Positions 1-8,438 of a stretch of 53,144 nt of DNA are shown here, piece after piece (the stretch's first letter is position 1; every line of letters starts with the position of its first letter). Under the pieces are notes generated by a model that saw nothing but the letters and a program-made list of their open reading frames with translations, did no database searches and was not told the DNA's origin. The stretch lies in contig JAIQFZ010000014.1 in assembly GCA_020073015.1 (NCBI GenBank), positions 1 to 53,144 of the forward strand. The letters are read 5' to 3'. The position numbers were made by a program, and so were the translations under genes. This DNA is from Terriglobia bacterium. GTDB taxonomy: Bacteria; Acidobacteriota; Terriglobia; Terriglobales; Acidobacteriaceae.

Positions 1-778
1 CGGTCACCATATCCCAGGCCAATGTCACTGGAGCGGCTTTCTCGCTCAGCGGACTGACGTTGCCAACTACGCTATCCTCGAACCAGAGCGTGACGTTCAC
101 GGTCACCTTTACCCCAACCAGCGCAGGCTCGGCCAGCGGGACGGTGTCGATTGTCTCGAACGCATCCAATTCCCCGCTCTCCATCGGCCTCTCCGGCACC
201 GGCACAACTCCGGGGCAGTTAGCGGTTTCTCCGGCATCATTGAGTTTTGGGAACGTGGTCGACGGATCGAGTTCTTCGCTCAGCGGAACCCTGAACGCCA
301 CCGGCGCATCGGTCACGATTTCCTCGGCCGGCATCACGAACAGCGAATTCGTGCTGTCGGGAATCACGTTGCCTGTGACTCTCGCGGCGGGTTCGTCGGC
401 TCCCTTCACGGTCACCTTCACGCCGCAGTCGAGCGGAACGGCTTCGGGGACCCTGTCTTTTACCTGTCTTTTACGAGCAACGCGACGAACTCTCCGGCAG
501 TCCAGTCCCTGACCGGGACGGGCACGGCTCCGTCACCACATTCCGTCGACCTGACGTGGAATAGTTCGACTAATGCCGTCGGCTATAACGTCTATCGCGG
601 TAGCGTATCGGGCGGTCCATACTCGATGATCAACACTTCCCTGGATGCTTCGACCGCGTTCACCGATAACAGTGTTACTGCGGGTCAAACCTACTACTAC
701 GTAGTTACCGCGGTGGATGCCAGTTCGAACGAGAGCGGCTACTCGAATGAGACCTCGGCGGTGATCCCAACCCCTTAG
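1..778 (+). pseudogene. choice-of-anchor D / Fn3 surface protein, 5'-truncated by window edge and frameshifted
   Basis: The reading frame is open from base 3 with no start, so the gene begins outside the window. It encodes Ser/Thr/Gly-rich beta-sandwich repeats (SFGNV, FTVTFTP and GLSGTGT motifs, typical of choice-of-anchor D / ASPM-SPD-2-Hydin domains). After position 474 the frame shifts and stops at 512. The matching continuation is in the next frame and runs to the TAG at 776-778, giving a C-terminal Fn3 module (VGYNVYRGSVSGGPY, TYYYVVTAVD) that ends in VIPTP. Deleting one copy of an 11-bp tandem repeat at 453-474 restores a single frame colinear with the intact paralogue at 5232-6215, which also ends in VIPTP. 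It is called a pseudogene on this basis; a sequencing or assembly error, or a slippage-switchable gene, remain possible. Confidence 0.8.
453..474 (+). repeat. 11-bp perfect tandem duplication that breaks the reading frame
   Basis: The unit ctgtcttttac occurs twice in direct succession (453-463 and 464-474). Because 11 is not a multiple of 3, the second copy shifts the frame of the surface-protein gene. The intact paralogue has a single unit at the equivalent place (…ALSFSSDAAN…). Removing one unit gives TLSFTSNATNSP. Confidence 0.9.
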
Positions 779-871
779 CGTCGATGACCGCCGTAGCGGT
801 GAGTCTGAAGGCGCTGCGAGGTCTCCGCTTTAACGTTGCATTTCCTTGCAACAGTTGCAAAATCTATCATC

Positions 872-908
872 TTGACAGCCACTTACAGAGAGCAAAGAAT
901 GTAAGTGG
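872..908 (+). promoter_or_regulatory. candidate promoter with an overlapping 8-bp inverted repeat upstream of the exosortase substrate
   Basis: TTGACA (872-877) is followed after 17 bp by AAGAAT (895-900), a plausible -35/-10 pair. A perfect dyad CCACTTAC (879-886) / GTAAGTGG (901-908) with a 14-bp gap covers the spacer and the -10 region. A protein bound there would compete with RNA polymerase. The substrate start codon lies about 95 bp downstream. The function is inferred from sequence alone. Confidence 0.4.
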
Positions 909-1000
909 CGCAACGGATTCTTTTTCGGAACTGTCGAATGCGGACTCCCCTCGCGCGGCAGCTTTTCTCCGTTGTGTCGTAGTTGAAGGGAGTCGTCTTA

Positions 1001-1216
1001 ATGAGAATGATCAATCGAAAATGGTGGCTGACCACGGTGGCACTCTTGCTCATGGTGCCCGCCGCTTTCGCCACCCTCCCAAAGCACAAGCCGAAACCCA
1101 GAAATTGGAATGTGCCGGAGGGCGGGTCTGCTCTGGTTTACGTGGTGGGAGCGGGCATCACATGTTTGGGCGCGATGGTTGTGCGGTCTCGAGAAGCAAG
1201 ACCGAAGCAATTGTAA
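1001..1216 (+). CDS. 71-residue predicted exosortase (PEP-CTERM-like) substrate
   Basis: This is a tiny secreted protein. ATG at 1001 is preceded by AAGGGAG (986-992) at 8-nt spacing; an upstream in-frame TTG at 983 is less likely. Residues 1-24 form a classic signal peptide (MRMINRKWW, hydrophobic core, AFA cleavage site). Residues 38-42 are VPEGG, followed by a hydrophobic segment (about 43-61) and a basic tail (RSREARPK). Short motif, membrane helix, positive end is the tripartite layout of exosortase sorting signals. Only about 13 residues (TLPKHKPKPRNWN, Lys/Pro-rich) lie between the predicted signal-peptide site and the sorting motif, so the mature product would be a very short peptide. 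The gene is convergent with an exosortase gene 160 bp away, which supports an enzyme-substrate pair. The substrate role is inferred. Confidence 0.75.
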   Translation: MRMINRKWWLTTVALLLMVPAAFATLPKHKPKPRNWNVPEGGSALVYVVGAGITCLGAMVVRSREARPKQL

Positions 1217-1230
1217 GTTACTAACACAGG

Positions 1231-1278
1231 AAACCGGCCTTGATCCCGAGCAGGCATGCACAGGATCGAGGCCGTTTT
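1231..1278 (+). terminator. long imperfect hairpin followed by TTTT, after the exosortase substrate
   Basis: AAACCGGCCTTGATCC (1231-1246) can pair with GGATCGAGGCCGTTTT (1263-1278) around a 16-nt loop, with a few mismatches. The 3' side ends in TTTTGCTT. It lies 14 bp after the substrate stop codon and fits an intrinsic terminator. Confidence 0.55.
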
Positions 1279-1378
1279 GCTTCTGTCGTGGGTCAGGGCT
1301 GCCACTCCTCTCTTCGCCTACGATGCTGCCGGCGGTCAAAGCAGGCGCAGTCACGGGTTTGGTGATCGCAATCGCAGA

Positions 1379-2230
1379 CTACGAAGGCCCTTCACTTTTT
1401 CGCAGAATCCAAATGAACACGATCACGATCGCCACCGCAATCGCAAGAAACACGAACCCGCCGTGGTGATGGAGGTTTCCGTCCAGGAACCCCGGATCGA
1501 CCCGAGTTCCAAGTTCTGCGATCACGAAAATACGGAGACCATTCTTGGCGACCGACAGCGGAATTGCCGCCGCGATGACTATGCCCTTCCGCCACCAGGA
1601 GCGCAGGAAAAGATGCGCCAGGACCATGGTCATCACGATCAACACTAAGCTGGATCGGATGCTGCTGCACTCGCGTGCCACTTCGATAGTCAGCCCTGGG
1701 ATGTCCAGAACGGTCCTATCCTGAGTCACCGGAACTCCGGCCATACGGAACAAGATTCGCGCTGAGACTGCAGACTCGTTTTGCAGGAACAGAATGATCC
1801 AGTTCAGCACAGCCCCTGGAATCGGAACCATCCAGAACAGGAAGCCGAGCGGAAAAAGAAATGACCGGAGCGCTCGCACGCCGAAACAGAAGACGACGCT
1901 GGCGATCCACCACGCGACGAGCGCAAACATACTCAACGACAGCCGGAGATCGTCGGCCATACCCGGCGCGCCCCATTTCGCAAAGCCAGCGATCAACAGA
2001 GCCCCTGCCAGCACAAGTGAACCCGCGTTAGCGTTTGATTCAGAACCCTGCGGGTGCATCCTCCATTGCAGGTAAATCAGCGCAAAGCTCAAGGGCGCAA
2101 CCAGGAGGATATGCGTGTATGCCTCGTTGCCTAGTGCGAGCCGAAACGTGACCACCAGAGCATGCCACCAGACAACAATCGACACACCGCACAAGAACGT
2201 GAAAGCGATGAATTGCGTGCGTTTGGTCAT
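1379..2230 (-). CDS. exosortase (transpeptidase for VPEGG-tagged proteins)
   Basis: This is a polytopic inner-membrane cysteine transpeptidase of 283 residues with about eight hydrophobic segments. The family signature is complete: ARECSSIRSS with the nucleophile Cys188, NGLRI with Arg233, and HHHGG with His254-256 in the last membrane region. Exosortases cleave C-terminal sorting signals of secreted proteins and are usually linked to extracellular polysaccharide loci. Here the predicted substrate (1001-1216) is convergent, and dTDP-rhamnose genes start 190 bp away on the other strand. The length and the VPEGG partner resemble acidobacterial exosortases; the subfamily (for example XrtJ) cannot be assigned by eye. 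ATG at 2230 is the obvious start. Confidence 0.9.
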   Translation of the reverse strand: MTKRTQFIAFTFLCGVSIVVWWHALVVTFRLALGNEAYTHILLVAPLSFALIYLQWRMHPQGSESNANAGSLVLAGALLIAGFAKWGAPGMADDLRLSLSMFALVAWWIASVVFCFGVRALRSFLFPLGFLFWMVPIPGAVLNWIILFLQNESAVSARILFRMAGVPVTQDRTVLDIPGLTIEVARECSSIRSSLVLIVMTMVLAHLFLRSWWRKGIVIAAAIPLSVAKNGLRIFVIAELGTRVDPGFLDGNLHHHGGFVFLAIAVAIVIVFIWILRKSEGPS

Positions 2231-2419
2231 TGAAGATCGGTGAGCCTGGTGTCGAGCTCACCCCTTGGCTACCCTGACCGGCCCAAATACATTCCTGAAG
2301 CCTTGGTCAGAGCAGTTCTAGTAGAATCGTACTGAAGTCTCACGTCTCACACTTGCGAAAACGACACATTTTACTCACCGAAGTTTTGCCATCCTTCCCT
2401 ACCGGCGAGGCCATCTAAC

Positions 2420-3487
2420 ATGCAGAACCTGATTCTGGTGACCGGGGGCGCCGGCTTCATCGGGTCAAACTTCGTTTTGCAGTGGCTCGCGCACGAATCG
2501 GCGCGCGTCGTTAATCTCGACAAACTCACTTATGCCGGGAATCCGCGCAACCTTGAATCGGTCGCCGAACATCCCGGATACAGGTTTCAGCAGGGCGACA
2601 TCGTGGACCGCGAACTGGTGGCCCGCTTGCTCCAAAGCGAGCGCCCTCGCGCCATCGTTCATTTTGCGGCGGAAAGCCATGTGGACCGGTCCATTCATGG
2701 ACCGGACGACTTTGTCCGCACCAATGTAAACGGAACGTTCAGCTTGCTGGAAGAGGCGCGCGCATACTGGTCTGCCCTCCCGGAGGCTGACCGGCGGGAT
2801 TTTCGCTTTTTGCATGTGTCGACCGATGAGGTCTATGGCTCGCTTGGCCCGAACGACCCGGCGTTCACCGAGACTACGCCTTACGCGCCCAACAGTCCGT
2901 ACTCGGCCTCGAAGGCTGCTTCCGACCATCTCGTCCGCGCCTATCATCACACTTATGGACTGCCGACGGTCACGACGAACTGCTCGAACAACTATGGGCC
3001 GTATCAGTTTCCGGAAAAGCTGATTCCGTTGATGATCCTGAATGCATGCGGCGGGAAGCCCCTCCCGGTTTACGGCGACGGGCAGAACGTGCGCGACTGG
3101 CTGTACGTGGAAGACCACTGCAGCGCGATTCGCACCGTGCTCGCGCAAGGGCGGGCGGGCGAAACCTATAACATTGGCGGTTGCAACGAAAAAAAGAACA
3201 TGGAGATCGTAACCACGATTTGCGAGCTTTTGGATGAGTTGCGGCCGGGAGACCCGGTAATTCCGCATCGGAAACTGGTGTCTTTTGTGAAGGACCGTCC
3301 AGGGCACGATCGTCGCTATGCGATGGACGCAAGTAAAATCGAACGCGAACTGAACTGGCGGCCAAAGGAGACCTTTGAGACCGGAATCCGCAAGACGGTC
3401 GTCTGGTACCTGCAGCATGAGGACTGGGTGCGCGACGTCACCAGCGGCAGCTACCGGCAGTGGATCGCGAAACATTACTCCGTCTGA
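2420..3487 (+). CDS. rfbB: dTDP-glucose 4,6-dehydratase
   Basis: Cytoplasmic extended-SDR enzyme that converts dTDP-glucose to dTDP-4-keto-6-deoxyglucose, the second step of dTDP-rhamnose synthesis. The N-terminal TGGAGFIGS binds [12 protein letters not shown] carries the catalytic Asp-Glu pair, and YSASK holds the Tyr/Lys couple. At 355 residues it has the normal family length. ATG at 2420 follows GGCGAGG at 2403-2409. It is first of three consecutive rhamnose genes with short gaps (18 and 38 bp to the next starts), so they are very likely co-transcribed. The product would feed cell-surface polysaccharide made near the exosortase. Confidence 0.97.
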
Positions 3488-3505
3488 GCAAACAACGACT
3501 TCAAC

Positions 3506-4405
3506 ATGACGACTTCATCGCAGCCAAACTATAAGGGCATCATTCTGGCCGGCGGTTCCGGCACGCGGCTGTATCCCGTGACCCATGCAGTCTGCAAGAG
3601 CCTGCTGCCGGTCTACGACAAGCCGATGGTCTACTACCCGCTCTCGATCCTGATGCTGGCCGGCATTCGTGACATCCTGCTGATTTCGACTCCCGACGAC
3701 CTACCCCGATTCCAACACCTGCTCGACGATGGCAGCCGCTACGGAATTCGCATCCAGTACGCGGCCCAGCCCAAGCCTGAAGGGATCGCGCAAGCATTTC
3801 TGATCGGAAAAGAGTTCATCGGCGCAAGTTGTTGCTCGCTAGTGCTGGGCGACAATATCTTTTACGGGCACGACCTCGCAAAGGACGTGCGGGATGCGAC
3901 GCAGAAATCGAGTGGGGCGCGCGTATTCGCCTACCCGGTGCAGGACCCGGAGCGTTACGGAGTAGTGGAATTCGATCAGGATGGGAAGGCCCTCAGCATT
4001 GAAGAAAAGCCCAAGCAGCCGAAGTCGCGCTACGCAGTTACGGGACTTTACTTCTACGACCATCAGGTCGCAGAGATCGCGGCCAAGCTGCAGCCATCCG
4101 CGCGCGGAGAACTGGAGATCACCGATGTGAACCGCGAGTATCTGCGCCGCGGCCAACTGGATGTGTGCGTGATGGGGCGGGGCATGGCATGGCTGGATAC
4201 CGGTACGCACGAAGCCCTGATGGATGCCGCCCTCTTCATCCAGACGCTGGAGAAGCGGCAGGGCCTGATGGTAGCCTGCCCGGAAGAGATTGCCTATCGC
4301 TCCGGCTACATCTCGGCGCAGCAATTGGAAGCGATCGCTCAGCCGATGCGGAACAACTCGTACGGAGCGTACTTGCTGCAGCTATTGAAAGAGCATGTGT
4401 TCTAG
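3506..4405 (+). CDS. rfbA: glucose-1-phosphate thymidylyltransferase
   Basis: Makes dTDP-glucose from glucose-1-phosphate and dTTP, the first step of dTDP-rhamnose synthesis. The nucleotidyltransferase signature [11 protein letters not shown] is at the N-terminus (about residues 16-26), followed by [24 protein letters not shown] and EEKPKQPKS, as in the short RmlA class. The length of 299 residues matches the family. It lies between rfbB and rfbC in the same direction. Confidence 0.97.
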
Positions 4406-4443
4406 GGCCGGTTCGTCCTGACTGAATCGCGAGTGCCATCGCA

Positions 4444-4986
4444 ATGAAGAAGACAGAAACCACTCTGCCCGGAGTCCTGATCCTTGAGCCTCGCGTTTTC
4501 GGCGATGATCGGGGATTTTTCCTGGAGAGTTACAACGAGCGTGTCTTCGCAGAGCTCGGCATCCGCGACAGATTCGTCCAGGACAATCATTCCTATTCCA
4601 GCCGGAACGTGGTGCGCGGACTGCACTACCAGATTCAGCAGCCGCAAGGAAAGCTGGTCCGGGTGATCATGGGAGAGATCGTCGATATCGCGGTCGATCT
4701 CCGGCAAAGTTCGGCCACCCTCGGCAAGTGGGAATCCTTCCGGCTATCGGGCGAGAACAAGCGCATGCTGTGGCTGCCCGTCGGGTTTGCACACGGCTTC
4801 TGCGTCGTCTCCGAGACAGCTCATGTCCTGTACAAGACCACCGATTATTATGCCCCGGAGCATGAGCGGACGGTGGCGTGGAACGATCCCGCCCTCCACA
4901 TCGACTGGCAACTCGATGGCGAGCCGATCGTCTCAGCCAAAGACAAACACGGCCAACCCTTTTTGGAATGCGAGAAATTCCGGTAG
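4444..4986 (+). CDS. rfbC: dTDP-4-dehydrorhamnose 3,5-epimerase
   Basis: Cupin-fold epimerase of the dTDP-rhamnose pathway, 180 residues. VVRGLHYQ contains the catalytic His, and LPVGFAHGFCV and KTTDYYAPEHE are family blocks. It is third in the rfbBAC run. The last pathway gene, rfbD (dTDP-4-dehydrorhamnose reductase), is not found after it or elsewhere in the window, so the pathway must be completed from another locus. Confidence 0.96.
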   Translation: MKKTETTLPGVLILEPRVFGDDRGFFLESYNERVFAELGIRDRFVQDNHSYSSRNVVRGLHYQIQQPQGKLVRVIMGEIVDIAVDLRQSSATLGKWESFRLSGENKRMLWLPVGFAHGFCVVSETAHVLYKTTDYYAPEHERTVAWNDPALHIDWQLDGEPIVSAKDKHGQPFLECEKFR

Positions 4987-5231
4987 ATGTCCTCGCTGAA
5001 TCTTCGCAGAAAGCAGTCTGCCCAAACTATTTGTCCCGCGTCCACTTCTCCTAAGTATCTGATCTGCAGTCGGATAGCCTTATCGCTTTGTGTGTTTTCC
5101 GACCCAAGGTACCTTCGGAACCTCGCGAACTCCACTCGATCTGAATAGACTGCGCATATCGAGCCGCGTCGTGGCGGACTCCGAGTCTCGTAAAGCACGC
5201 AAGCACAACTGAATTAAAAGGAATTGGGCCC

Positions 5232-6215
5232 TTGCAGGTTTTTCCATCGTGTCGCCGAGTCTTCCCCGCCCTCTTGATTGCCAGCGGAATCGCGCTGCTT
5301 ACCGGTTGTCAGAGCTTGGCCTCGGGCGGCTCCCAAGGAGGCTCCACCTTGGCCGCGTCCTCGTCCACGCTTTCCTTTGGCAACGTGCAGAAGAATAAGA
5401 GCTCCAACCTTTCGGAGACACTGACCAACACTGGTGGAGCAACGGTGACCATCTCGGAAGCCAACGCCAGTGGCACGGGCTTTTCGGTGAGCGGACTCAG
5501 CTTGCCGATGGCACTCTCCCCAAAACAGAGCGTGACGTTCACCGTGACTTTTTCTCCCACGGCTACAGGATCCACCACCGGGACGCTCGCCGTTGTATCG
5601 ACTGCAGACAACTCGACCCTGAGCATTGCGCTCTCCGGGACCGGTACGGCACAAGGCCAATTGTCGGTCTCACCGGCGAGCCTGAGTTTTGGCAACGTTG
5701 TGGTCGGTGCCAGCGGCTCGCTGAACGGCACACTGGGCGCGACCGGATCATCGGTGACCGTTTCGTCGGCGAGCACCAACAGCAGCGAATTTGTGCTCTC
5801 CGGAATCTCTCTGCCCACAACTCTCGCTGCTGGTCAGACAACATCTTTCACGGTCACGTTCTCACCGGCGACATCCGGCACGGCCTCAGCCGCACTTTCG
5901 TTTTCGAGCGACGCTGCGAATTCGCCGACCGCGCAAGGGTTGACCGGCAAGGGCACAGCCGCGACCCAGCACAGCGTGGCTCTGAGCTGGAATGCCAGTA
6001 CTAGTTCAGGCGTGGTCGGTTACAACATCTATCGTGGCAGCGTGTCGGGCGGACCGTACGCGCGGATCAATTCTGCGCTCGAAGCCGCCACCGCTTACAC
6101 GGACAGCAACGTCAGCGCAGGTCTGACCTATTACTACGTCACGACGGCCGTCGACGGGAGTGCAAACGAGAGTGGCTACTCCAATCAAACCCGGGCCGTG
6201 ATTCCCACTCCGTAA
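5232..6215 (+). CDS. lipoprotein with two choice-of-anchor D repeats and a C-terminal Fn3 domain
   Basis: Residues 1-26 form a lipoprotein signal (hydrophobic stretch then LTGC), so the protein should be lipidated and exported. Two beta-sandwich repeats follow (each with SFGNV and FTVTFSP motifs and ending GLSGTGT/GLTGKGT), then an Fn3 module (VGYNIYRGSVSGGPY, TYYYVTTAVD) ending in VIPTP. It is the intact paralogue of the broken gene at 1-778. The start is the TTG at 5232, 9 nt after AAAGGA (5217-5222); no in-frame ATG precedes the signal peptide. The function is unknown. Such repeats often serve as spacers in surface proteins, and the setting beside rhamnose and exosortase genes suggests an envelope role. 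Confidence 0.85.
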   Translation: MQVFPSCRRVFPALLIASGIALLTGCQSLASGGSQGGSTLAASSSTLSFGNVQKNKSSNLSETLTNTGGATVTISEANASGTGFSVSGLSLPMALSPKQSVTFTVTFSPTATGSTTGTLAVVSTADNSTLSIALSGTGTAQGQLSVSPASLSFGNVVVGASGSLNGTLGATGSSVTVSSASTNSSEFVLSGISLPTTLAAGQTTSFTVTFSPATSGTASAALSFSSDAANSPTAQGLTGKGTAATQHSVALSWNASTSSGVVGYNIYRGSVSGGPYARINSALEAATAYTDSNVSAGLTYYYVTTAVDGSANESGYSNQTRAVIPTP

Positions 6216-6301
6216 ACTCTGCCCACAACCGACCGGGAAGCGCTGCTCGGAACTGAAGACACCCCAGAACAGAGAACCCTTCATTCGGTGGGAACCGCTG
6301 C

Positions 6302-6718
6302 CTAGAGCCCTTTGCGGACCGCGGAGTGGGCCAGGGCATTGGCCTCGGTGTTGTTCTCACGAGGGACGTGGGAGATCGAAAAATCGAGGAACTGAGCCAA
6401 TTTTCGGCAGGTCCAGTTCAGGGAATAGAGACGCGGGCTGCGGCAGGTGTAATCGCCCAGCATCTGCTTGACCACGACTTCGGAGTCTGAAAACACGTGG
6501 AGCGCTCTGGCTCTGAGTCCGACAGCACACTGCAAAGCCTCGAGCAGAGCGACGTACTCGGCAACATTGTTGTCGTGATGTCCAATCCACTTCGCGATTC
6601 TGATTGGGCCGTCTTGGGAGCCGTCGATCACGACTCCAATACCGGATGGTCCCGGATTCCCCAGAGATCCGCCGTCAACATAGGCAACTAGATCTGTCAT
6701 TGTGTCCGCTGTCATCAC
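6302..6718 (-). CDS. ribonuclease HI-family protein
   Basis: A 138-residue RNase H fold protein of the short archaeal/Gram-positive type. The first carboxylate is in YVDGGSLGNPGPSG (Asp15), the second in NNVAEY (Glu54), the third in VFSDSE (Asp78). At the fourth site, where this group usually has EADALA, the sequence is EANALA (Asn127 in place of Asp). Known members cleave the RNA strand of RNA:DNA hybrids. Two later Met codons are possible starts; one gives MTDLVAYVDG from 6700. It stands alone between a lipoprotein gene and a long non-coding gap. Confidence 0.85.
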   Translation of the reverse strand: MMTADTMTDLVAYVDGGSLGNPGPSGIGVVIDGSQDGPIRIAKWIGHHDNNVAEYVALLEALQCAVGLRARALHVFSDSEVVVKQMLGDYTCRSPRLYSLNWTCRKLAQFLDFSISHVPRENNTEANALAHSAVRKGL

Positions 6719-6941
6719 TATGGGCGACGAAGGATTGTGGCGTCAAGATTCTTCCTTGGTTCGTCGTCATTATTCGGCCTTGGTCGGTCACGGCCCTCAA
6801 CGGTCTTGGGGTCCCTGTGAATGATTCTGTGGAAAACAGGGACCATCGACTTCTTGCTATTCAACAAACGTTAACAATTCAAGGAGTTGCAGTTCTCAAA
6901 TTCCAGATCTTTGCAAAGGCACATTGCACCGAAAAATGGCA

Positions 6942-6970
6942 TTGACACTTTTGCAGCAAGTGTTTACTTT
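6942..6970 (+). promoter_or_regulatory. candidate sigma-70 type promoter in front of the structured RNA region
   Basis: TTGACA (6942-6947), 17-bp spacer, TACTTT (6965-6970). The -35 matches consensus perfectly and the spacing is ideal. No plus-strand coding frame follows, so any transcript would be non-coding. Confidence 0.4.
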
Positions 6971-6976
6971 GGCTTC

Positions 6977-7205
6977 CGTCGACGGCTGAAAGGGTTGGCT
7001 TAAATAAAATTTTGCCAGTCCGAAGTAGGCTGAGTGATTAGCCCGGCGGGGTGACCCGAAGGGCAGCCAAACCTGAAAAAACCGACTGCTCTGCGAGGAG
7101 GAGTTGGGGTTTGGGACTGCGAAAGCAGTGATCGCATCAAGGGCTGTGACGGTGCATGCCTCCACGCCGTGGGCTCCCTCGCAGGAGCTGGCGGCTAGAG
7201 CATAA
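6977..7205 (+). ncRNA. candidate structured non-coding RNA, family unknown
   Basis: This sits inside a 655-bp stretch (6719-7373) with no convincing gene on either strand. Nested pairings by eye are CCAAACC (7067-7073) with GGTTTGG (7108-7114), continued by CCGACT (7082-7087) with AGTTGG (7102-7107); ACTGC-GAAA-GCAGT (7116-7129), a GNRA-type tetraloop hairpin; GCTCC-CTCGCA-GGAGC (7173-7188); and GCCC/GGGC (7041-7044/7061-7064) enclosing GGG/CCC. A good promoter lies just upstream. The sequence does not fit tmRNA, RNase P, 6S, SRP, TPP, cobalamin, SAM or c-di-GMP-I patterns that I know. The strand is inferred from the promoter; the pairings could also form on the minus strand, upstream of the RNase H gene. 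The ends are approximate. Confidence 0.4.
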
Positions 7206-7373
7206 CCAATGTCACAGCCTTTACCTTTTCTGCTTTCCGTCTCTCCGGCATCGCTCCGCGCGCCTCGCAGTTTCCAACCGAATTCCTCAATTCCCAAGTA
7301 TCGGACGCTCCCAACATTGCTTTAGCTGCTAACGCTGAAGGAACCCTCAACTGAACTCGCGCCTTTGGCTGAC

Positions 7374-8438
7374 TCAACCTGCCAGCAGGGCCGCGATGCG
7401 CTCCCCGGCGTGACCATCCCACAAAGGCGGTACAGCTCCCTTCTTCGCCTTGCCCGCGAGTACGCGGGAGAGTTCGGACCGCAATCTGTCCGGATCGCTT
7501 CCGACGAGAATGTTCGTACCCAGAGAGACTGTGATGGGTCGCTCGGTGTTCTCGCGGAGGGTCAGGCAAGGTACGCCGAGATACGTGGTTTCTTCCTGGA
7601 TGCCTCCGGAGTCCGTGATTACCACGGTCGCGCGAGACTGCAGACCCAGAAAATCTATGTATGGCAGCGGATCGAGCAGCTGAAGTTGCCCCGCATTCAG
7701 TCCGAAATCAGAAATCCGTTGGCGAGTGCGTGGATGCGCCGGGAAAACCACCGATAGATCGCGATTCACCTCGAGCAACGACTGCAGGATGCTCTTCAGC
7801 GTGGCACTCTCGTCAACATTCGCTGGACGGTGCAGTGTGACCAGGGCATAGCGCTCGGGAAGACCGTTCTTGTTTTGACGTTGCGCCAGCGGCAACAGCT
7901 TCACGAGAGAGTCAATCATGACATTGCCGACACGGAAGATTTTCTCGGGCGCAATTCCTTCGCGGCGAAGGTTCCTGTCTCCGTCTTCCGAGGGCGTATA
8001 CAACACATCAGCGAGCTGATCGGTGACCAGCCGATTGATTTCCTCCGGCATGCCGCGATCGAAAGAACGCAGCCCGGCCTCGACGTGGCCCACGCGGACT
8101 CCAAGCTTTGCGCAGACCAGAGCGGCCGCAACCGTGGAATTGACGTCACCATAGACGAGCACGATGTCGGGCTTGCGTTCGAGCACCACCGGCTCGAAAC
8201 GGGTCATGATTTCGGCCGTCTGCCGGGCATGCGTCCCGGAACCCACCGCCAGGTTTACGTCTGGAGCCGGGATGCCAAGCTGCTCAAAGAACACGTCCGA
8301 CATATTCGCGTCGTAGTGCTGACCAGTATGGACCACGGCCTGAACGACATGCCGGCGGGATTTCAGGGCGTTCAGTACTGGCGCTACCTTCATGAAATTC
8401 GGGCGCGCCCCCACAATGTGAAGCACATTCACCGGCAT
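7374..8438 (-). CDS. wecB: UDP-N-acetylglucosamine 2-epimerase (non-hydrolysing)
   Basis: Interconverts UDP-GlcNAc and UDP-ManNAc in the cytoplasm for surface polysaccharide synthesis. At 354 residues it has the standard length. Family blocks are IVGARPNFMKVAPV at the N-terminus, TGQHYDANMSD, VYGDVNST, GHVEAGLRS, the TLHRPANVD region, and TDSGGIQEE near the C-terminus. ATG at 8438. It extends the polysaccharide theme of the first 8 kb but is not in an operon with rfbBAC. Confidence 0.97.
   Translation of the reverse strand: MPVNVLHIVGARPNFMKVAPVLNALKSRRHVVQAVVHTGQHYDANMSDVFFEQLGIPAPDVNLAVGSGTHARQTAEIMTRFEPVVLERKPDIVLVYGDVNSTVAAALVCAKLGVRVGHVEAGLRSFDRGMPEEINRLVTDQLADVLYTPSEDGDRNLRREGIAPEKIFRVGNVMIDSLVKLLPLAQRQNKNGLPERYALVTLHRPANVDESATLKSILQSLLEVNRDLSVVFPAHPRTRQRISDFGLNAGQLQLLDPLPYIDFLGLQSRATVVITDSGGIQEETTYLGVPCLTLRENTERPITVSLGTNILVGSDPDRLRSELSRVLAGKAKKGAVPPLWDGHAGERIAALLAG

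Follow-up and report, generated by a model that had tools for sequence, protein, structure and literature searches.

The window (the whole stretch of 53,144 nucleotides analysed here) encodes an exosortase and, convergent with it, a short gene whose product ends in a sorting tail that we term VPEGG-CTERM. In the explanation that we consider probable, the two form a dedicated, lineage-specific pair that displays a very short peptide and is separate from the XrtA-like exosortase and the PEP-CTERM proteins of the same cell. The comparisons across genomes suggest that signal, enzyme, and dedicated promoter constitute one system in this soil acidobacterium, which current signal models miss. While exosortase/CTERM sorting itself is already known, the VPEGG-CTERM sorting signal, the enzyme subclass, the near-minimal substrate, and the gene-specific promoter element are new. 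Neither VPEGG nor VPDSG occurs in the literature searched (subscription papers being mostly outside the reach of this search). The features of the window discussed below are:

2-778, + strand: C-terminal part of an ASH/choice-of-anchor protein with an FnIII-like end (...AVIPTP), cut by the contig start (ORFs, domain searches)
846-877, + strand: conserved, putative promoter-operator TTGCAACAGTTGCAAAATCTATCATCTTGACA, with a 7-1-7 palindrome at 846-860 and the -35 box TTGACA at 872-877 (cross-genome comparison)
895-900, + strand: putative -10-like hexamer AAGAAT, 17 bp after the -35 box (consensus scan)
1001-1216, + strand: short VPEGG-CTERM gene, putative exosortase substrate, 71 aa (ORF translation, alignment, HMM matches, codon analysis)
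1001-1072, + strand: signal peptide, residues 1-24 (alignment; predicted cleavage)
1073-1111, + strand: predicted mature segment TLPKHKPKPRNWN, residues 25-37, evolving near-neutrally (codon analysis, survey of short products)
1112-1213, + strand: VPEGG-CTERM tail, with VPEGG (1112-1126), a helix with conserved Tyr and Cys, and a basic end (tail alignments)
1379-2230, - strand: exosortase, 283 aa, with Cys188 (1667-1669), Arg233 (1532-1534), and His254 (1469-1471) (HMM scores, alignment, structure model)
2420-4986, + strand: three genes read as dTDP-rhamnose genes (putative names)
5232-6215, + strand: second ASH-FnIII lipoprotein, a recurrent exosortase neighbour (domain searches, neighbour clustering)
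7374-8438, - strand: UDP-N-acetylglucosamine 2-epimerase, wecB type (PF02350, 362.6 bits)

Divided at its predicted parts, the 71-residue translation reads MRMINRKWWLTTVALLLMVPAAFA, TLPKHKPKPRNWN, VPEGG, SALVYVVGAGITCLGAMVV, and RSREARPKQL. ORF translation thereby confirms the layout that an earlier note on this DNA had given, namely a signal peptide (1-24), about 13 residues, VPEGG, a hydrophobic segment, and a basic tail. The signal peptide ends in an A-F-A site, VPEGG occupies residues 38-42, and the hydrophobic segment is a helix; the near-minimal size claimed for the substrate is borne out by the 13 residues between the two signals. Matches to the small protein occur in 14 of 101 genomes (its own and 100 relatives), two of them weak, and the HMM matches 11 genus genomes besides the window's own. 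In the 12-row alignment, the signal peptide is conserved, the middle is variable, and the end, PEGGS..Y....G..TC.GAM..RSR, is strongly conserved. Position -1 of the signal-peptidase site is Ala in all 11 aligned genus sequences, and position -3 is Ala, Ser, or Thr.

Codon-level conservation, the lack of which would have refuted the system according to the earlier note, is found at both ends of the frame. Across all 55 pairs of 11 genus genes (G045, G019, and the second copies of G004 and G011 were omitted), pooled pN/pS is 0.39 for the signal peptide, 0.30 for the tail, and 0.82 for the mature part. Among the 8 of 55 pairs listed, dN/dS ranges from 0.09 to 0.28 in the signal peptide, from 0.02 to 0.24 in the tail, and, in the five unsaturated pairs, from 0.52 to 1.21 in the mature part. 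The closest pair (G000/G001) is the exception, with 0.59 in the tail and 0.6 over the whole gene, and counts against our preferred explanation. Selection acts at the protein level on both ends of the frame; the middle is close to neutral. Because 11 further genus genomes match and both ends are under purifying selection, the small gene is not a chance frame. The signalling or scaffold peptide that had been envisaged is narrowed by these values: since the mature part is variable and near-neutral, one fixed peptide message common to the genus is not supported, and the candidates that fit the data are a spacer, a diversifying core, or a tag that is displayed but not strict in sequence.

To describe the mature part, we compared 18 short products, those with a short frame read, with signal-peptide cuts set by eye and one LPEGG variant among them. 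Omitted from this set were two genes that do contain a Cys pair (the broken one of G019 and the second copy in G004), a second G011 fragment, and, because of their ambiguous starts, short frames in G323, G389, and G419. The predicted mature parts comprise 10-30 residues and are hydrophilic, with Arg, Gly, Asp, His, and Lys abundant. In 11 of the 18, there are exactly two Cys, separated by 5-10 residues, of which the second precedes the motif by 2-4 residues (8 in one case); the window protein and six others have none in the mature part. For these 11 among 18 related proteins, the simplest reading would be a disulfide-closed loop just outside the membrane. The Cys pair, the promoter element, and the FnIII neighbours were all unforeseen by the earlier note.

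The convergent enzyme is an exosortase by family and by its intact Cys/Arg/His residues, with putative substrate cleavage and transfer activity. It exceeds the cut-offs of Pfam PF09721 (144.9 bits, cut-off 25.7) and of the NCBIfam 8TM_EpsH model TIGR02602 (119.5 bits, cut-off 105.55), and Cys188, Arg233, and His254 are invariant among 32 aligned exosortases, including two XrtA-like ones, so that the assignment made earlier from Cys188, Arg233, and a His holds. Its predicted model (mean pLDDT 91.9) consists mostly of long helices, as in a polytopic membrane protein. PDB relatives were found neither by sequence at E 1 nor by fold of the model at E 0.001; consequently, the structure offers no mechanism. 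The convergent arrangement, put at about 160 bp before, is real, with 162 bp between the stop codons.

Against the named models, the enzyme stays below every exosortase subfamily cut-off. XrtC is its best subfamily HMM, yet its 163 bits lie far under the 300-bit cut-off of TIGR04151, and an XrtC/VPDSG-CTERM identity was rejected, as were XrtA (126.4 bits vs a cut-off of 208, TIGR03109) and XrtJ (30.2 bits vs 200, TIGR04199). The VPDSG tail form resembles, we presume, the VPEGG tail in its VP, acidic residue, small residues, helix, and basic end, but the VPDSG-CTERM model (TIGR03778) matched in none of 19 genomes at E 0.1. A PEP-CTERM identity of the tail was likewise rejected, TIGR02595 leaving all 12 VPEGG members unmatched (E 10, HMMER filters on), and none of the NCBIfam sorting-tail models matched any of these 12. 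PEP-CTERM matches are present in all 24 genus genomes; the five in the window genome (E 0.01) all lie at other loci. The window genome has one other exosortase, which is XrtA-like and lies on contig C238.

To our knowledge, bacterial exosortase chemistry (cut site, acceptor, and product) is still largely inferred. We propose that the small precursor would be exported by Sec and cut by signal peptidase I after Ala24. The C-terminal helix would then keep the 13-residue segment at the inner membrane, on its outer face, where exosortase Cys188, aided by Arg233 and His254, would cut in or next to VPEGG and transfer the newly formed C-terminus to a lipid or glycan acceptor. The functional product would be a very short, hydrophilic, surface-tethered peptide, with one disulfide probable in 11 of the 18 short relatives, and its gene lies in an envelope-polysaccharide region together with ASH-FnIII lipoproteins. 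As far as the accessible parts of the papers go, the models proposed for exosortase (PMC1569441) and archaeosortase A (PMC7157517) likewise let an active-site Cys take the new C-terminus and hand it to an acceptor, and the available portions of PMC12188702 and PMC7726332 contain no cut-site data.

Other genera have this tail at the end of proteins that are about 70 to about 270 aa long. Some of these are Gly-rich, and some, of about 240 aa, carry a CDDF-type stretch; no Pfam domain was detected at E 0.01 in the four proteins scanned, and no NCBIfam model scored above its cut-off in seven VPEGG proteins. In an alignment of 24 of 30 tails (five near-copies and one odd end omitted), P, E, G, G, and the helix Tyr are invariant, while V and the Cys reach at least 90%. 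Of 399 genomes sampled from the class, 9 matched; all five hits that exceed 30 bits fall in the window's family, and two weak hits (23 bits) in another family.

This distribution bears on an alternative in which the small protein keeps its C-terminus and, as a two-helix membrane protein, partners or regulates the exosortase. Conservation covers both hydrophobic segments, the 13-residue loop between them is near-neutral as in an inter-helix spacer, and the conserved Tyr and Cys lie inside the helix, all of which such a protein would explain; moreover, the gene of the "exosortase F system-associated protein" has the locus number next after xrtF in the available text of PMC10936215. However, the 11 aligned genus sequences retain an A-x-A-like signal-peptidase site, and the tail is also attached to longer mature parts (about 50 to 200 residues), in several cases under the same promoter element, as would suit a sorting tail that is portable. 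We consider an unprocessed partner or regulator unlikely.

The element TGCAACNNTYGCAAAANNTATCA(N)TCTTGACAG, give or take a base, is common to 9 of 11 genus genes, where it lies about 120-155 bp upstream of the start codon and runs into the -35 box; it has diverged in G010, and none is recognisable in G003. A search for its 32-base form was positive in 9 of 24 genus genomes: in eight it precedes the small gene, and in the ninth, G014 (85% complete; gene and enzyme both not found), it is a relic kept with three mismatches at L159:1500-1531, beside FnIII genes and with no small ORF next to it. The pattern GCAANANNTATCAN{0,1}TCTTGACA occurs in 12 of the 32 genomes searched, with one hit each; these hits come from two genera, and all of them precede a VPEGG gene, whether short or long, as checked individually for the hit in G365. 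Since 24 of the 32 genomes have a VPEGG gene, the exact pattern is missing in 12 of these 24, a point against the preferred explanation, and none of the eight genomes without a VPEGG gene has it. Diverged forms precede further long VPEGG genes; no form was found before the VPEGG genes of G345 and G157 or the short frames of G323 and G419. A weight matrix applied to 669 kb of neighbourhoods yielded 18 sites over threshold, all upstream of VPEGG genes by coordinates, a result that is partly circular because most of the 18 sites built the matrix; within the same 669 kb, no site precedes an exosortase or FnIII gene. Rfam RNA elements were not found in positions 1-8000 of the window at gathering scores. 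As part of our joint explanation, we regard it as probable that the VPEGG gene is driven by a dedicated promoter-operator.

On the upstream side, the gene at 2-778 shows a frame break at an 11-bp tandem duplication (ctgtcttttac twice, 453-474), the ASH part being read in the same frame as ORF 60-512 and the FnIII part in the one that closes at 778; a recent disruption and a fault in the assembly are the two explanations. The genes at 2420-4986 we take, from their sequences, to be the putative rfbB, rfbA, and rfbC. Across the enzyme loci, an ASH-FnIII (...AVIPTP) or small FnIII protein is encoded on the fetched stretch in 23 of 31, including 8 of 10 tail-negative ones, and a UDP-GlcNAc 2-epimerase in 11 of 31, directly adjoining the enzyme in several. 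ASH-FnIII neighbours were located at 2-778 and 5232-6215 of the window and in L141, L142, L144, L145, L137, L138, and L143; in VPEGG-negative loci, this family stands beside the exosortase mostly as two to four tandem copies. Genome-wide, the FnIII-like domain occurs 0-7 times per genome (12 genomes, E 1e-8), and nine of these genomes bear the enzyme; there, by position, 26 of 49 copies map to within 10 kb of the enzyme gene. In several genus genomes (L050:10646-10972, L055:6226-6552, L057:4788-5114, L159:1035-1364), the VPEGG promoter is flanked by an opposite-strand gene for a separate FnIII lipoprotein of 109 aa. These neighbours would fit an envelope-polysaccharide role, as is proposed for exosortases generally in the accessible part of PMC1569441.

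More tentatively, the exosortase may tether a microprotein of 10-30 residues, often with a single disulfide, whose sequence diversifies between species while leader, tail, and promoter stay fixed, and which would work as a variable surface tag together with the ASH-FnIII lipoproteins of its locus. The same conserved leader and processing tail could also belong to a diversifying peptide signal, with the variable core released as a species-specific message. Its conserved ends, the indels in its variable core, and the one Cys pair in 11 of 18 cores would suit such a signal, but the recurrent neighbours among those clustered or searched are the exosortase, FnIII proteins, and sugar genes, with no receptor gene noticed to recur there, dN/dS is not clearly above 1, and in the archaeal relative for which the chemistry is known, substrates become anchored and are not released (PMC7157517). 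We judge a released signal to be quite improbable.

The preferred reading, a dedicated exosortase/VPEGG-CTERM pair, is carried by co-occurrence. All 398 genomes of the family were examined with misses counted (tail at E 1e-3, enzyme at 190 bits or more), the enzyme test having been run first on 29 of 40 non-genus tail-positive genomes and then on all 398. Both tail and enzyme are present in 35 genomes, the tail only in 17, the enzyme only in 10, and neither in 336 (52 tail-positive, 45 enzyme-positive); a stricter tail cut of 30 bits gives 32, 7, 13, and 346, respectively. In the genus alone (24 genomes), the corresponding counts are 11, 1, 1, and 11. Fisher p is about 2e-28 for the 398 genomes and 5.4e-5 for the genus, values that overstate the association because related genomes share ancestry. 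The one genus genome with the gene and no enzyme found, G019, is 75% complete, and its gene carries an in-frame stop; G006, with the enzyme and no small gene found, is 98% complete. Some of the 17 tail-only genomes have weak tail hits or incomplete assemblies. A structure-based scan of 6.5-20 kb round the enzyme in the 10 tail-negative genomes revealed no alternative tail-bearing ORF, and on control loci the same scan recovered the VPEGG gene alone in 3 of 3.

The exosortase tree points in the same direction. It comprises 48 sequences, 45 of the window type and its neighbours plus three XrtA-like ones; several partial or unfetched exosortases (such as G017, G110, G127, G157, G189, and G208) were omitted. 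All 27 exosortases from VPEGG-positive genomes belong to a single clade with 31 members (98/92), which lies far from the XrtA-like exosortases, and the labels require 4 changes compared to a mean of 16 in shuffles, which shows clustering only. The correlation between enzyme and small-protein distances is weak (r 0.25, Mantel p 0.04, 11 genomes) and counts against the preferred explanation. G000, G001, G010, and G003 have Cys-less small proteins that are alike by eye, at 70-79% to the window's, with the others at 55% or less, and the enzymes of these four genomes are not grouped together in the tree. Because alike small proteins pair with tree-separated enzymes, these relationships suggest that substrates have been swapped. 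At E 1e-3, G000 has one VPEGG tail, in line with a single-target sorting system, and 9 of the 52 tail-positive genomes have two or three hits. In G011, the exosortase copy near the small gene (L052, G011:C153:33733-34571) is split over two frames, and a second, full-length copy lies on C117; G365 contains short fragments resembling decayed exosortase copies.

The stricter form of the pairing, in which a short VPEGG gene always sits beside this enzyme, did not survive. Among the 35 genomes with both, gene and enzyme lie within about 1.3 kb in 9 (convergent in 7) and on different contigs in 13, the assemblies being fragmented. No tail was found in 10 of 45 enzyme genomes, and elsewhere the tail ends much longer proteins. 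Relatives with the enzyme but without the small gene, which the earlier note had said would refute the system, do exist, 1 of 12 in the genus (G006) and 9 of 33 outside it. They refute a strict pair; the statistical pair is still strong, resting on the co-occurrence in 398 genomes, the single clade, and the stop codon in G019. That the small protein is instead a substrate of the genome's XrtA-like exosortase, its neighbouring enzyme being unrelated, is very unlikely: such an exosortase is present in the window genome, and another exosortase lies within about 10 kb of the small gene on the same contig in G008, G011, G017, G018, and G020, but 23 of 24 genus genomes have another exosortase and 12 have the VPEGG gene, so that the tail follows the window enzyme type and not exosortases generally, and TIGR02595 does not match it.

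Known systems, as described in the accessible portions of the papers cited, share single traits with this pair. EpsH/XrtA with PEP-CTERM (TIGR02602, TIGR03109, TIGR02595) has the same enzyme family, a tripartite tail, and a polysaccharide gene neighbourhood (PMC1569441). However, PEP-CTERM substrates are many, with a median of eight per genome (PMC1569441), whereas the window genome has one tiny VPEGG substrate with a tail unmatched by TIGR02595. XrtF of Flavobacterium also combines an enzyme with one associated gene of adjoining number, the exosortase F system-associated protein, and both genes were validated as surface-colonisation genes (PMC10936215); it belongs to a different phylum, and we liken it by description. 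Single-target sorting systems are an established idea: dedicated rhombosortase/GlyGly-CTERM systems have one enzyme and one target, often adjacent (PMC3237569), although the protease family is unrelated. Archaeosortase A/PGF-CTERM is a distant homologue with an active-site Cys and a proposed transfer of the new C-terminus to lipid (PMC7157517), but it is archaeal and its substrates include the large S-layer glycoprotein.

A one-substrate enzyme with a predicted product of about 13-18 residues would provide an unusually tractable test, because mass spectrometry can read the whole product. The pair also prompts one to ask what function a displayed peptide of this length could have. Further, an as yet unnamed sorting signal with its own promoter element may help to find substrates regardless of their mature part.
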